NCBI GenBank assembly: GCA_021813805.1
Contig: JAKAJL010000010.1
Coordinates: 1 to 64,000 of the forward strand
DNA length: 64,000 nt
Direction: 5' to 3'
From: Pseudomonadota bacterium
Lineage (GTDB): Bacteria; Pseudomonadota; Alphaproteobacteria; Rhizobiales; Beijerinckiaceae
Below are positions 24,808 through 37,343 of this stretch, one piece after another. A program made the position numbers and the translations under genes. The notes beneath the pieces are model-generated. The model was given only the letters and a program-made list of their open reading frames with translations, ran no database searches and had not been told where the DNA came from. How positions within the stretch are numbered: the first letter of the stretch is position 1; every line of letters starts with the position of its first letter.

Positions 24808-24860
24808 TGGTGGAGCTGAGGGGATTCGAACCCCTGACCTCTGCAGTGCGATTGCAGCGC
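24808..24860. repeat. attL: 53-bp copy of the tRNA-Ala 3' half
   Basis: These 53 bases are identical to 37291-37343 and stop matching at base 24861. On the minus strand they spell the tRNA 3' end: CCA, acceptor 3' strand, T-arm, variable loop, the 3' side of the anticodon stem, the anticodon loop, and the 5' side of the stem. The D-arm and acceptor 5' strand are missing, so this copy cannot make a tRNA. It is the footprint of integrase-mediated insertion. Confidence 0.92.
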
Positions 24861-25019
24861 CCGCACAAAAACGACCATCTCGCCCTCTCGGCCGGCAATC
24901 CTGACATCCGAACGCGCCATCACCATAAATAGCTTCATTTCAGCCACTTTCACCCCATCGGACAGCGATGGACGCCACCACCTGAAGAAGGATTGCGATG
25001 GACGGCCCTTACCCAAATC

Positions 25020-25059
25020 TGCTATCTATGTGCTAGCTAGCAAGCGGCTAGCTAGCATC
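25020..25059. promoter_or_regulatory. Left-end GCTAGCTAG repeats, candidate integrase/Xis arm site
   Basis: Just upstream of the integrase gene the palindromic block GCTAGCTAGC occurs twice (25032-25041 and 25047-25056) within 25 bases. The stretch 25020-25040 matches 37224-37244 near the right end in 19 of 21 positions and in the same orientation. Short repeats shared by both ends and lying inside the core repeats are what arm-type recombinase sites look like. Autoregulation of the integrase gene is an alternative. Confidence 0.5.
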
Positions 25060-25078
25060 GGATCAGCGGATCGGGAAA

Positions 25079-26353
25079 ATGTCGACGACCAAGAAGACGA
25101 TCACCATCGCGGCGGTGGAGTCGCTGGGGCCCAATTCAACGGTGTGGGACACCCGCGTCACCGGCTTCGGCGTTCGCCGCCAGCGCGGCCCCGGCGCATC
25201 CTACGTGCTCTTTTTCAGGACGCAGGCCGGGCAGCAGCGCCTGGCGACCATCGGACGCCATGGCTCGCCATGGACGCCCGACACAGCCCGCGACGAAGCC
25301 CTTCGCCTGCTGGCCGAGGTTTCGAAAGGCAACGATCCCGCCGCGGTCAAAGCAGCGTGGCGGGCTGCGCCCACCGTCGCGGCCTTGTGCGACGCCTATC
25401 TGGAAGCCGCTGAATCGGGAAAGCTCCTGACCCGGCGCAAAGTCGCCAAGAAGGCGGCCTCGCTCGCCATCGAGAAGGGACGCATCGAGCGGCACATCAA
25501 ACCTTTGCTCGGCTCCAAGAAGGTCGCCGTCGTCACGCGGCAAGACATCGAGCGGTTCTACAACGCTGTCTCCGATGGCAAGACGGCGACGACGGTGAAG
25601 ACCGGCAAGCACGGCCTCGCCCGGGTGACGGGCGGAGCTGGAGCCGCGCGCCGGACGCTTGGACAGCTCGGCGCAATCTTCTCCTTCGCCGTCAAGCAGG
25701 GGCTGCGCGCCGACAACCCGGTCCATGGCGTCGACCGCCCGGCGGACGGCAAGCGCGAACGCCGCCTGTCGCCGGAAGAATACGCCCGGCTGGGCGCGGC
25801 CCTGCGCGAGGCGCCGAAATCATTGGCCAGCGCCGTGGCGGCGAGCCGCTTCGTCGCGGTCACCGGCTGGCGCAGGGCAGAGGTGACCGGCCTGACTTGG
25901 GCCTCGGTCGACGCCGCGACCAGAACGGCGACGCTGCACAACACCAAGACCGGCAGGAGCATCCGCCCGCTCTCGCGTGCGGCCCTAGAAATCCTCAAGG
26001 GGCGGTCTCGGGATGGCGAACTCGTCTTTCCCAGCGCCGCCGACGCGAAGAAGCCGATGGCGGGCTACCACAAGATGTGGCTGCGGCTTGCCAAGATGGC
26101 CGCCCTGCCCGCCGATGTCACGCCGCATGTTCTCCGGCATTCCTTCGCCAGCGAAGCCTTCGGCCTCGGCCTGTCCGAACTGACCATCGCCTTCCTGCTC
26201 GGTCACCGGAAAAGCTCGACCACGCAAGGCTACATCCACGCCGACGCGACATTGTTGCGCGCCGCCGATCAGGTCGCCGACCACATCGCCGGGCTGATGG
26301 GCGACGCGAAAGCAACCGGCGCGGTCGTCGATCTGGATGCGAGGCGCGCGTAA
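25079..26353 (+). CDS. int: Tyrosine-type site-specific integrase
   Basis: This 424-residue recombinase catalyses insertion of the element into tRNA-Ala and its excision. It has an N-terminal DUF4102-like arm-binding part (VTGFGVRRQRGPGASYVLFF, RDEALRLLAEVSKGNDPA), a SAM-like core domain (~100-220) and the catalytic domain with R265 (TGWRRAEV), K290 (NTKTG), H350 and R353 (HVLRHSF), H376 (LLGHRKSS) and the nucleophile Y385 (TTQGYIH). All six active-site positions are intact. It lies 218 bases inside attL and reads away from it. The downstream small gene overlaps its stop (TAATG). Confidence 0.95.
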   Translation: MSTTKKTITIAAVESLGPNSTVWDTRVTGFGVRRQRGPGASYVLFFRTQAGQQRLATIGRHGSPWTPDTARDEALRLLAEVSKGNDPAAVKAAWRAAPTVAALCDAYLEAAESGKLLTRRKVAKKAASLAIEKGRIERHIKPLLGSKKVAVVTRQDIERFYNAVSDGKTATTVKTGKHGLARVTGGAGAARRTLGQLGAIFSFAVKQGLRADNPVHGVDRPADGKRERRLSPEEYARLGAALREAPKSLASAVAASRFVAVTGWRRAEVTGLTWASVDAATRTATLHNTKTGRSIRPLSRAALEILKGRSRDGELVFPSAADAKKPMAGYHKMWLRLAKMAALPADVTPHVLRHSFASEAFGLGLSELTIAFLLGHRKSSTTQGYIHADATLLRAADQVADHIAGLMGDAKATGAVVDLDARRA

Positions 26354-26748
26354 TGGCCGGTCTCGATCCTGACGATCCGAAATACGTCGTCGCTCGCGCC
26401 CTGAAGGCCGTCGAGGACTTCAAGGCCCGGCAAGCCGCCGAAGACGCTGCGGCGATTATTCGGGCCGAGCAAGAAGCCATATCGGCGCAGCTCGCAGAAC
26501 AGGCCGCCGCGATCATTAGGGCCGAGCATGAGGCTGCTGCGGAGCAGGCCGCCGTGATGATTCAGGCGTCGCTTCCACCGCCCCTGCCAAATACGCTCGC
26601 CGGGCGGTTGGCCGCCGAGTTGCGCGCTCAGTATGGTGAGCGCCGCCCCGCGGCGACAAACAAGAGGATCGCGGCCGAGCTCCGCAAGCGCGGCGTCGAG
26701 TTCAGCGACCGCACCTTGGACAGCGCACTCGCACTCGCTTGGCCCTGA
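26353..26748 (+). CDS. Small Ala/Glu-rich coiled-coil protein
   Basis: The 131-residue product begins at an ATG that overlaps the integrase stop, so it is probably translationally coupled. The first half is a long helical, Ala/Glu/Gln-rich coiled coil with a repeated pattern (AAIIRAEQEA, AAIIRAEHEA). The second half, from about residue 75, is compact: LAGRLAAELRAQYGERRPA and NKRIAAELRKRGVEFSDRTL look like a small helical DNA-binding domain. I do not recognise a family. Position suggests a recombination or regulatory accessory protein. Confidence 0.7.
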   Translation: MAGLDPDDPKYVVARALKAVEDFKARQAAEDAAAIIRAEQEAISAQLAEQAAAIIRAEHEAAAEQAAVMIQASLPPPLPNTLAGRLAAELRAQYGERRPAATNKRIAAELRKRGVEFSDRTLDSALALAWP

Positions 26749-26750
26749 TT

Positions 26751-26790
26751 TTTGCGCAACTCTGCGCAACCGTGCGCACCTTCGCGCAAG
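26751..26790. repeat. Four tandem 10-bp repeats (TGCGCAAC-type)
   Basis: Four consecutive 10-base units, blocks starting at 26751, 26761, 26771 and 26781, share the core TGCGCA (CGCGCA in the last) followed by AC, AC, CC and AG. The spacing of exactly one helical turn puts all units on the same DNA face. They end 55 bases before the AlpA-like gene and directly follow the stop of the coiled-coil gene. A multimeric operator is the simplest reading. Confidence 0.75.
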
Positions 26791-36088: not shown

Positions 36089-36748
36089 ATGAAAATCCTT
36101 ATCGCTGCCGCCCTCGCTCTGACGGCGTACGTTGCTCTGATCGTGCTCGCTGATTTGGGGTTGCGCGACGGCCCGACGAAGACGGGAAACTATACCCTTC
36201 CGGCGCAAGCTGATTCGGGCCTTGTATGCCAGCTGATCGACGTCGACTCTTTAAACCCGCTCCAGATGACCGTTGATTTTGGCTTGTTGTGGGGTGCTAC
36301 GGTCACGCTGTTCATCGAAGGCCAACTGCCAGATTCCTTGGATGCCGAAGTTAAGACCACACAATGGACGCAGACCCTCAAAGCCCAAGTTGAAGGCGCG
36401 CGGATGCTTGAAGCGCAGATTGACCGTTCTACAGGCGAGACGACCATGTCCTATCAGGCGGCATTGTGGCGCACAGCGAGGGGATTCTGTCATCCCGGCC
36501 CTACGAACGTCCGCCCGCCGAAGACGATTCCGCCGGTTTTCCCCGTCTGCAGGCCACAAGATTTCCAGAGCGACGCCGACCTCGAGGAAGGTGCGCGGGA
36601 AGGCGACGCTGAATTTACCGCCGCTTTGGCCGGAAGGTATCCCGACGCTCCCAAATGCACGCTGCCACCAGAAAGTCTTGCTGCGAAGCTGCAGGACGAT
36701 GGATTTCGCGAGAAATGGGTGGCGGCGCACCAGCCGACCAAACGCTAA
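36089..36748 (+). CDS. Putative exported hypothetical protein
   Basis: Starting at ATG 36089 the product has 219 residues and a signal-anchor-like N-terminus MKILIAAALALTAYVALIVL; the longer frame from 35966 adds a polar tail and a poor start. The rest is a soluble domain with SGLVCQLIDVDSLNPLQMTV, QWTQTLKAQVEGARMLEAQI and a Cys/Pro-rich part near ARGFCHPGP and FPVCRPQDF. No family is recognised. Codon use appears less GC-biased than the flanking chromosome, as expected for foreign DNA. Confidence 0.65.
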   Translation: MKILIAAALALTAYVALIVLADLGLRDGPTKTGNYTLPAQADSGLVCQLIDVDSLNPLQMTVDFGLLWGATVTLFIEGQLPDSLDAEVKTTQWTQTLKAQVEGARMLEAQIDRSTGETTMSYQAALWRTARGFCHPGPTNVRPPKTIPPVFPVCRPQDFQSDADLEEGAREGDAEFTAALAGRYPDAPKCTLPPESLAAKLQDDGFREKWVAAHQPTKR

Positions 36749-36951
36749 AGCCATCCGGTCAATGTCCAGCCGCATCGTCGCCGAAGTGCGCTGGCCACCG
36801 ATAGGGCGCCAAGGCTCTGGCCACGGCCCCTATTGGACTGCAAGCTCAATATTGCATCAAGACGAGGCCTTCTGCCTCACCAACCGGCCCGATCCTCGGC
36901 ACGGTGGTCAATCGATGCGGTCCGAAAAGGACAAATTAGGGGGACATTTCC

Positions 36952-37206
36952 ATGACCGATCGCATCACCATCGAAATCGAAGGCAAAGCCGTCGACACGA
37001 TTATCTGGACCCGTGCCCGCACGGTCGCGCCCGGTGAATCCTGGAAGGGCTTCGCCTGCGTCTCCTGCGGCGCTCCATTCGAGGATCTGCCCGCGCTGGT
37101 CGTGCATGAGGAAAGTTTCGAACTGGGTTTCTGCCTGCGATGCGCCGAGGCGCTGGCGCCCGACGCCCTCGCGATCGCTTCCGAACACCTTGGGGTCGTC
37201 GGCTAA
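36952..37206 (+). CDS. Small protein with two CxxC motifs (zinc ribbon-like)
   Basis: The 84-residue product starts with a beta-hairpin-like MTDRITIEIEGKAVDTIIW and has CVSCG (about residue 38) and CLRCA (about residue 63), spaced as in zinc ribbons. A GGGGG ribosome-binding site precedes the ATG by 8 bases. It is the last gene of the element before the right repeats. A zinc-binding regulatory role is plausible. Confidence 0.7.
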   Translation: MTDRITIEIEGKAVDTIIWTRARTVAPGESWKGFACVSCGAPFEDLPALVVHEESFELGFCLRCAEALAPDALAIASEHLGVVG

Positions 37207-37223
37207 GCCAAAATCCGGCCTTC

Positions 37224-37244
37224 TGCTAGCTATCTGCTAGCTAG
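37224..37244. promoter_or_regulatory. Right-end GCTAGCTA repeats, candidate integrase arm site
   Basis: The block TGCTAGCTATC followed by TGCTAGCTAG matches the left-end segment 25020-25040 in 19 of 21 positions and lies 47 bases inside attR. A further TTTCTAGCC follows. It is read as the right arm site of the recombinase. Confidence 0.5.
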
Positions 37245-37290
37245 GCTTTCTAGCCTCCGCCGCCTCTTCCCTACAACTTGTTGATTTTCT

Positions 37291-37343
37291 TGGTGGAGCT
37301 GAGGGGATTCGAACCCCTGACCTCTGCAGTGCGATTGCAGCGC
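37291..37343. repeat. attR: 53-bp core repeat within the intact tRNA-Ala gene
   Basis: These bases are identical to attL (24808-24860) and are the 3' 53 bases of the complete tRNA gene. Because the tRNA lies on the minus strand, the element is inserted at its 3' side and the functional tRNA remains at the right junction. Confidence 0.92.

Follow-up and report, generated by a model that had tools for sequence, protein, structure and literature searches.

The 64,000-nt stretch of contig JAKAJL010000010.1 analysed here (the window) comes from an alphaproteobacterium of the Beijerinckiaceae and contains, at positions 24808-37343, an element of about 12.5 kb bounded by tRNA-derived repeats. Fifteen open reading frames (ORFs) were accepted in the element and all 15 lie on the plus strand; the first-pass annotation of this DNA had described its AlpA, excisionase, primase and VapE genes as lying on one strand. 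Overlapping minus-strand ORFs were not accepted. The element is probably a tRNA-integrated, self-replicating phage satellite resembling the phage-inducible chromosomal islands (PICIs), as judged from its sequence. A ProQ/FinO-domain gene, two riboswitches of the SAM-I/IV (S-adenosylmethionine) family and another, cargo-sharing element elsewhere in the genome had no place in the earlier reading and were found here; the riboswitch cargo and its combination with ProQ are what is new. The features that define the element are the following.

24808..24860, no strand: attL, a displaced 53-bp piece from the 3' part of tRNA-Ala(CGC), same sequence as 37291-37343
25079..26353, plus: tyrosine integrase, 424 aa (PF00589 3.8e-22, PF13356 2.1e-8)
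26353..26748, plus: 131-aa ORF with a 1-nt overlap with the integrase stop codon, positioned as the 'iolg' gene of phage-inducible chromosomal minimalist islands (PICMIs)
26846..27094, plus: 82-aa protein, putative AlpA-type helix-turn-helix (HTH) protein; similar ORFs elsewhere
27091..27576, plus: ProQ/FinO-domain protein, 161 aa (PF04352 1.5e-13, residues 54-154)
27567..27782, plus: hydrophobic ORF of about 71 aa, start codon uncertain; its sole Pfam match is under the cut-off
27866..28198 (alternative start 28007), plus: excisionase/HTH_17-type protein (PHROG_66)
28354..30087, plus: primase-like protein, 577 aa (PHROG 'DNA primase' 1.1e-15)
30084..31787, plus: VapE-type replication helicase, 567 aa (PF05272 8.4e-79)
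31816..32275, no strand: putative origin of replication with 11 exact GTCTGACGG copies, which occur in either orientation, and an AT-rich stretch
35207..35309, plus: SAM-I/IV riboswitch 1 (RF01725, 54.6 bits), Shine-Dalgarno-like AAGGAGG near its 3' edge
36849..36948, plus: SAM-I/IV riboswitch 2 (RF01725, 61.5 bits)
37291..37366, minus: attR inside an intact tRNA-Ala(CGC), repeat copy plus Rfam tRNA match at 37294-37366

The two ends are as first described. The 53-bp direct repeat is exact and has no extension at either side; its right copy lies within the intact tRNA, at the end opposite the integrase, and the 3' fragment stands beside the integrase. The tRNA and the right flank are present in 11 of 11 congeneric genomes, the host's own included. 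The left side is variable: window positions 16991-22195 map about 1.75 Mb away from the tRNA in congener G006, and the sequences left of the tRNA, excised by an exact core match in eight of ten relatives (not L064 or L067), differ among those eight and the host's own genome, with one resembling pair (L065 and L066). We read this as a putative integration hotspot at the tRNA-Ala site plus chromosome rearrangement. About 195 bp of the left flank (24247-24442) recur in host contig C86 (87%) and in relatives, and their counterpart in G010 is part of a longer ORF adjoining FtsH; the left-flank ORF looks truncated by comparison, which points to deletion or rearrangement close to the attachment site. 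The pair L065 and L066 has 1.5 kb in common (82%) left of tRNA-Ala, including an integrase-like ORF on the other strand.

Profile scans covered all 15 ORFs with Pfam and PHROGs, and 10 of the 15 with NCBIfam and with PADLOC. The integrase is complete, as had been claimed: it is a full open frame with a strong PF00589 match, and it contains the segments TGWRRAE, HVLRHSF, LGHR and GYIH, which we take to be catalytic. A weak PADLOC match (0.0046) of the overlapping 131-aa ORF to a type I specificity subunit was disregarded. The excisionase-type HTH gene proposed in the first-pass annotation is borne out by the protein of 27866-28198, which matches PHROG_66 at 3.4e-6 (1.1e-5 for the shorter form) and Pfam HTH_17 below the cut-off. 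The proposed AlpA gene fared less well. Its 82-aa product has no family match in the Pfam, PHROG and NCBIfam scans, but it is 35-46% like small ORFs upstream of VapE in three VapE loci and 41% identical over 66 aa to an ORF of the second element that this genome holds, which is described below.

The ProQ/FinO ORF passes the curated cut-off of PF04352 (51.1 versus 27 bits) and is the sole match to this family in the host genome; of 385 genomes sampled from the class, 13 have the family, host included. Its relatives comprise four plasmid records at E <=0.01, with none in phages and none in viral contigs. In one of these 13 genomes (L125), the ProQ ORF has a Toprim primase on one side and a phage integrase on the other. 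In the available part of one review, alphaproteobacterial ProQ/FinO members are often plasmid-borne or amid mobility genes, FinO/ProQ genes are common on plasmids, and two members, FopA and PcnR, repress the replication of their own plasmids (PMC9977716).

The replication module agrees with the first description. The primase is supported by PHROG 'DNA primase', though without a Pfam match, and its segments FFMLDIDD and KVHLFF resemble archaeo-eukaryotic primase motifs. Relatives of it are found in 2 of 100 genomes (the host's own included) and in five plasmid records, and none among phages. One of these records, NZ_CP015609.1 (Bacillus safensis), matches over the same query range and with the same identity and E-value as Roseomonas mucosa plasmids (69 versus 68 bits), so that the record may be contaminated or mislabelled. 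Besides its Pfam match, VapE has a match among solved structures, chain 7pds_A ('Similar to D. nodosus vapE'; 6.9e-49); we take this chain to originate from a staphylococcal pathogenicity island (SaPI). VapE is present in 5 of 60 genomes and in 35 of 397 genomes of the order, both counts including the host. An 8,056-bp contig of congener G007 (L078), which carries a VapE gene, is the reverse complement of JAJYCZ010000158.1 (L155; metagenome-assembled genome BP9.bin80).

Directly behind VapE, the iteron-like array reported earlier is real and above chance: the 9-mer GTCTGACGG has 11 exact copies there and no other exact copy in the window, and 11 copies in the 600 bp behind VapE compare with <=3 of any 9-mer in 148 control windows. 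A perfect 25-bp inverted repeat containing iterons flanks 87 bp, and 11 of the 12 lowest-GC 60-mers of the element fall at 31805-31885, in the left part of the array. The same score was run on 75 usable loci of 80 alphaproteobacterial VapE loci, 29 of which are enriched at an empirical p <=0.02, some with three copies only.

The main rival reading is an integrative non-conjugative plasmid, which its primase-VapE-iteron module would keep as a circle once excised, and which would move by transformation, by mobilisation in trans or by chance. In its favour, VapE genes are carried by small plasmid circles, for example pGO128 (4,340 bp) and pKNA06 (25,766 bp), VapE replicons of this small circular kind being found in Acetobacteraceae, 127 of 132 VapE-matching plasmid records (any organism) are typed non-mobilizable, and ProQ/FinO genes are, as said, frequent on plasmids. 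We nevertheless regard such a plasmid as unlikely, since the 15 ORFs include no partition or relaxase match, and phage packaging is suggested both by the order of integrase, overlapping ORF and HTH gene and by the small terminases that the second element encodes beside the shared cargo.

Both riboswitches exceed the Rfam gathering cut-off for SAM-I/IV (41.1 bits) and directly precede small orphan genes, orf13 and orf15. They share with other RF01725 members their score, their core, the pairing between loop and 3' end, and the position directly before a start codon; they differ in preceding orphan genes of a mobile element, and riboswitch 1 is off in one conserved junction. The family is found in 77 of 397 genomes of the order, host included. 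The host genome has four SAM-I/IV riboswitches under stricter filters, by which weak ones may be lost: two in the element and two in contig C21. In 20 aligned aptamers, complementarity between the P3 loop and the 3' end is greater within sequences than across them (sum 76 versus a mean of 63.5, permutation p 0.0006); the longest Watson-Crick run is 3 in riboswitch 2 and 4 in riboswitch 1, or 5 and 4 with G-U pairs. Since the loop partner in the window copies, as read from the letters, is the Shine-Dalgarno region, the arrangement suggests translational OFF control of orf13 and orf15 by SAM. Among the open-access literature matches listed, none describes a riboswitch class inside a phage satellite. 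The nearest is a study of the PLE satellites, in the available part of which 5' untranslated regions are suggested to regulate downstream genes and riboswitches are named as a possibility (PMC7567579).

Both riboswitch-gene units recur on contig C21 of the same genome, one matching over 860 bp (88.7%) and the other over 408 bp (87.5%), and the 3' end of a tRNA-Arg(CCT) follows them there. The proteins of orf13 and orf15 are 91% and 88% identical between the two elements, with dN/dS (NG86) of about 0.27 for orf13 (21 differences in 306) and about 0.22 for orf15 (26 in 252), values that rest on few differences. The C21 element encodes two adjacent Sf6-type small terminase subunits (PF20901, over the Pfam cut-off), an AlpA-like ORF and a weak HTH_17-like ORF. 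It has no match to the window VapE, and the iteron 9-mer is absent. At the nucleotide level the two elements share the riboswitch cargo only, apart from 136-bp repeats and the tRNA 3' end. The comparison thus places a common riboswitch cargo in two putative elements with different tRNA genes and different replication parts, one of which has packaging-type genes. At 12647-14092 in reverse-complement coordinates of C21 (L273/L279), the second element further has a 482-residue open frame that reads like PcfJ; a 451-aa part of it was scanned and has no Pfam or PHROG match.

The remaining features of the window element lie downstream of the origin.

32405..33112, plus: orf9, 235 aa, orphan with CxC and CxxC pairs, no family match
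33354..33827, plus: orf10, 157 aa, orphan, no family match
33846..34343, plus: orf11, 165 aa, orphan, no family match
34312..34447, plus: 136-bp repeat copy 1, GC-rich hairpin followed by a T run
34636..34953, plus: orf12, 105 aa, hydrophobic stretch by eye
35311..35619, plus: orf13, 102 aa, calculated pI 4.3, 91% identical copy in the second element
35869..36005, plus: 136-bp repeat copy 2, 85% identical to copy 1
36089..36748, plus: orf14, 219 aa, N terminus hydrophobic by eye
36952..37206, plus: orf15, 84 aa, two CxxC pairs, 88% identical copy in the second element

Relatives of orf9 are confined to the host genome (1 of 397). For orf13 and orf15 there is no family match, and viral contigs, phages and plasmids contain no relatives except a plasmid match to orf13 at E=0.9. 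The cargo DNA (32300-37290), compared with all collected loci, matches only the second element and, over 55 bp, a chromosomal riboswitch (L268). Kindred copies of the 136-bp repeat also occur in the second element, and the repeats may mark cassette borders; relative to shuffled sequences, copy 1 folds mildly better (z -1.92) and copy 2 does not (z 0.17). Predicted structures of orf13 and orf15 (mean pLDDT, a per-residue confidence score, 67 and 73, from two-sequence alignments) gave best PDB matches at E 0.76 and 1.9, which were ignored. Promoter-like sites (3 versus 2.1, sd 1.4, in shuffles) and terminator-like sites (19 versus 13.8, sd 3.6) were not used as evidence.

The shared cargo raises the possibility that the element is an island whose function lies in its two SAM-regulated genes, which would give the host a metabolic or stress trait, with mobility as a by-product. 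The riboswitch cargo is indeed the main sequence that the two elements share, and at 5 of 24 SAM-I/IV sites in other genomes of the order, where the 24 next ORFs were translated, the riboswitch precedes an ORF that we take to be MetA-like. No metabolic role is visible for orf13 or orf15, as they lack family matches and, beyond the E=0.9 match to orf13, relatives in viral contigs, phages and plasmids, and we consider this explanation highly improbable.

The earlier statement that the element has no recognised phage or conjugation genes holds for the profile scans of the 15 ORFs. These contain no capsid, terminase or relaxase match (Pfam and PHROGs; NCBIfam for its 10 ORFs), the proposed profile search of the cargo for capsid homologues ended without a match, and structural and lysis genes likewise gave none in the Pfam and PHROG scans. 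An integrative and mobilizable element would have a relaxase, and a capsid-forming PICI (cf-PICI) its own capsid genes; neither is matched here. An extrachromosomal satellite-like element with a FinO/ProQ-type gene also has parA, repA and capsid genes, whereas the present element is integrated, VapE-based and without a capsid match.

In the available part of PMC6092414, Gram-negative PICIs are transcribed rightward and carry int, a regulator gene (alpA or merR), primase and rep, and no structural genes; their origin lies immediately 3' of rep, with two iteron sets around an AT-rich part. As far as that description goes, the element shares int at one end with direct-repeat attachment sites, a putative regulator, primase and rep, rightward genes, the lack of recognised structural genes, a length of 12.5 kb, and an iteron origin with an AT-rich part directly behind rep. 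The candidates for an alpA/merR-type regulator are the PHROG_66 protein of 27866-28198 (HTH_17 under the cut-off) and the 26846-27094 protein, which lacks a family match. The element differs in its alphaproteobacterial host, the tRNA-Ala site, the ProQ gene in the early module and the riboswitch cargo, and its ORFs include no match to terS, which is present in some of the PICIs described; the two small terminases are in the second element.

In the available part of PMC10803314, a small ORF, 'iolg', overlaps int in 21 of 35 subfamilies of the PICMI satellites of Vibrionaceae. With these satellites, as described there, the element shares int plus an overlapping small ORF, an HTH gene, a primase and orphan accessory genes; it is not at fis, is about twice the 6,110-bp prototype, and has separate primase and VapE genes (PMC10803314). 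The VapE-type helicase is a further likeness, seen through the 7pds_A match. It is shared with the SaPIs, from which the element differs in that its genes are unidirectional, no divergent repressor was recognised, and the host is another.

The first-pass annotation had called this a satellite-type element. That class remains the best supported, because of the gene order, the rightward direction, the absence of recognised structural genes and the cargo-sharing element with its two small terminases; the expected empty site was not found. Of six relatives whose ORFs were picked by eye, not systematically, head or packaging matches were seen in four (L095, L136, L145, L153), a tail gene in L180 and none in L078. 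Several observations weigh against the reading. No empty tRNA-Ala(CGC) site was found in ten congeners, and the window's left flank never adjoins the tRNA there, within 1.5 kb beside the tRNA or less at contig ends (about 0.75 kb in L061, about 0.24 kb in L067). This outcome speaks against a simple insertion, so that insertion is argued from the repeat and the integrase and not from an empty site. Neither terS nor a cos or pac site was recognised in the element. The C21 element has no match to the window integrase and no left tRNA-Arg repeat (no profile scan for other integrases was made), and may thus be a relic. Among the VapE loci, 46 of 75 lack iteron enrichment at p <=0.02. For the riboswitches, the model has no match at E <=0.1 in the 99 VapE loci (1.67 Mb) searched out of 129, the folding energies do not stand out (z -0.83 and -1.59), and in riboswitch 1, for both copies of orf13, CTCGAT replaces the CAAGAG of 11 of 16 aligned chromosomal aptamers, a deviation that makes its ligand uncertain. 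Finally, congener G004 carries a 98%-identical tRNA-Ala 3' fragment beside a 54%-identical integrase, in an element that also has a large terminase gene downstream (L095, G004:C22:1-16334, from about 5404 onward, seen in part only), and this case may break the PICI rule of prophage-free attachment sites.

The G004 element also bears on the view that the present one is a remnant prophage, left in the tRNA as an island after the loss of its structural genes. Some elements that carry terminase or capsid genes do have related integrase and VapE modules, and one of them lies beside the near-identical tRNA fragment of this congener. Against it, the reading frames of integrase, primase and VapE are uninterrupted over their full length, the two repeat copies match exactly and the iteron array is retained; between this element and the second one, moreover, two cargo genes are conserved together with their riboswitches. 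We hold this origin to be improbable.

If the element is a satellite, Int and the HTH/excisionase proteins would excise it at the repeats, VapE would bind the iterons and open the AT-rich stretch, and the primase would start copying. A helper phage would induce the element and package its copies. ProQ could tune element RNAs, for example in replication control like that of FopA and PcnR on plasmids. With SAM bound, the aptamer loop would pair with the Shine-Dalgarno region and keep orf13 and orf15 off; both would be translated at low SAM.

A more far-reaching proposal, which we consider doubtful, is that an alphaproteobacterial satellite lineage senses the phage drain on SAM by its riboswitches and then makes two small proteins, aimed for instance at the helper or at SAM-dependent restriction, with ProQ setting RNA levels. 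Phage depletion of SAM as the signal is a guess, for which there is one precedent: according to the available part of PMC7877911, methionine biosynthesis in E. coli goes up in response to SAM-degrading enzymes of phages. If true, a metabolite-sensing RNA before satellite cargo, as kept by both elements of this genome, would let such elements read the chemistry of the cell directly. The ProQ/FinO gene within an int-primase-VapE module ties RNA chaperones known from plasmids to integrated elements.

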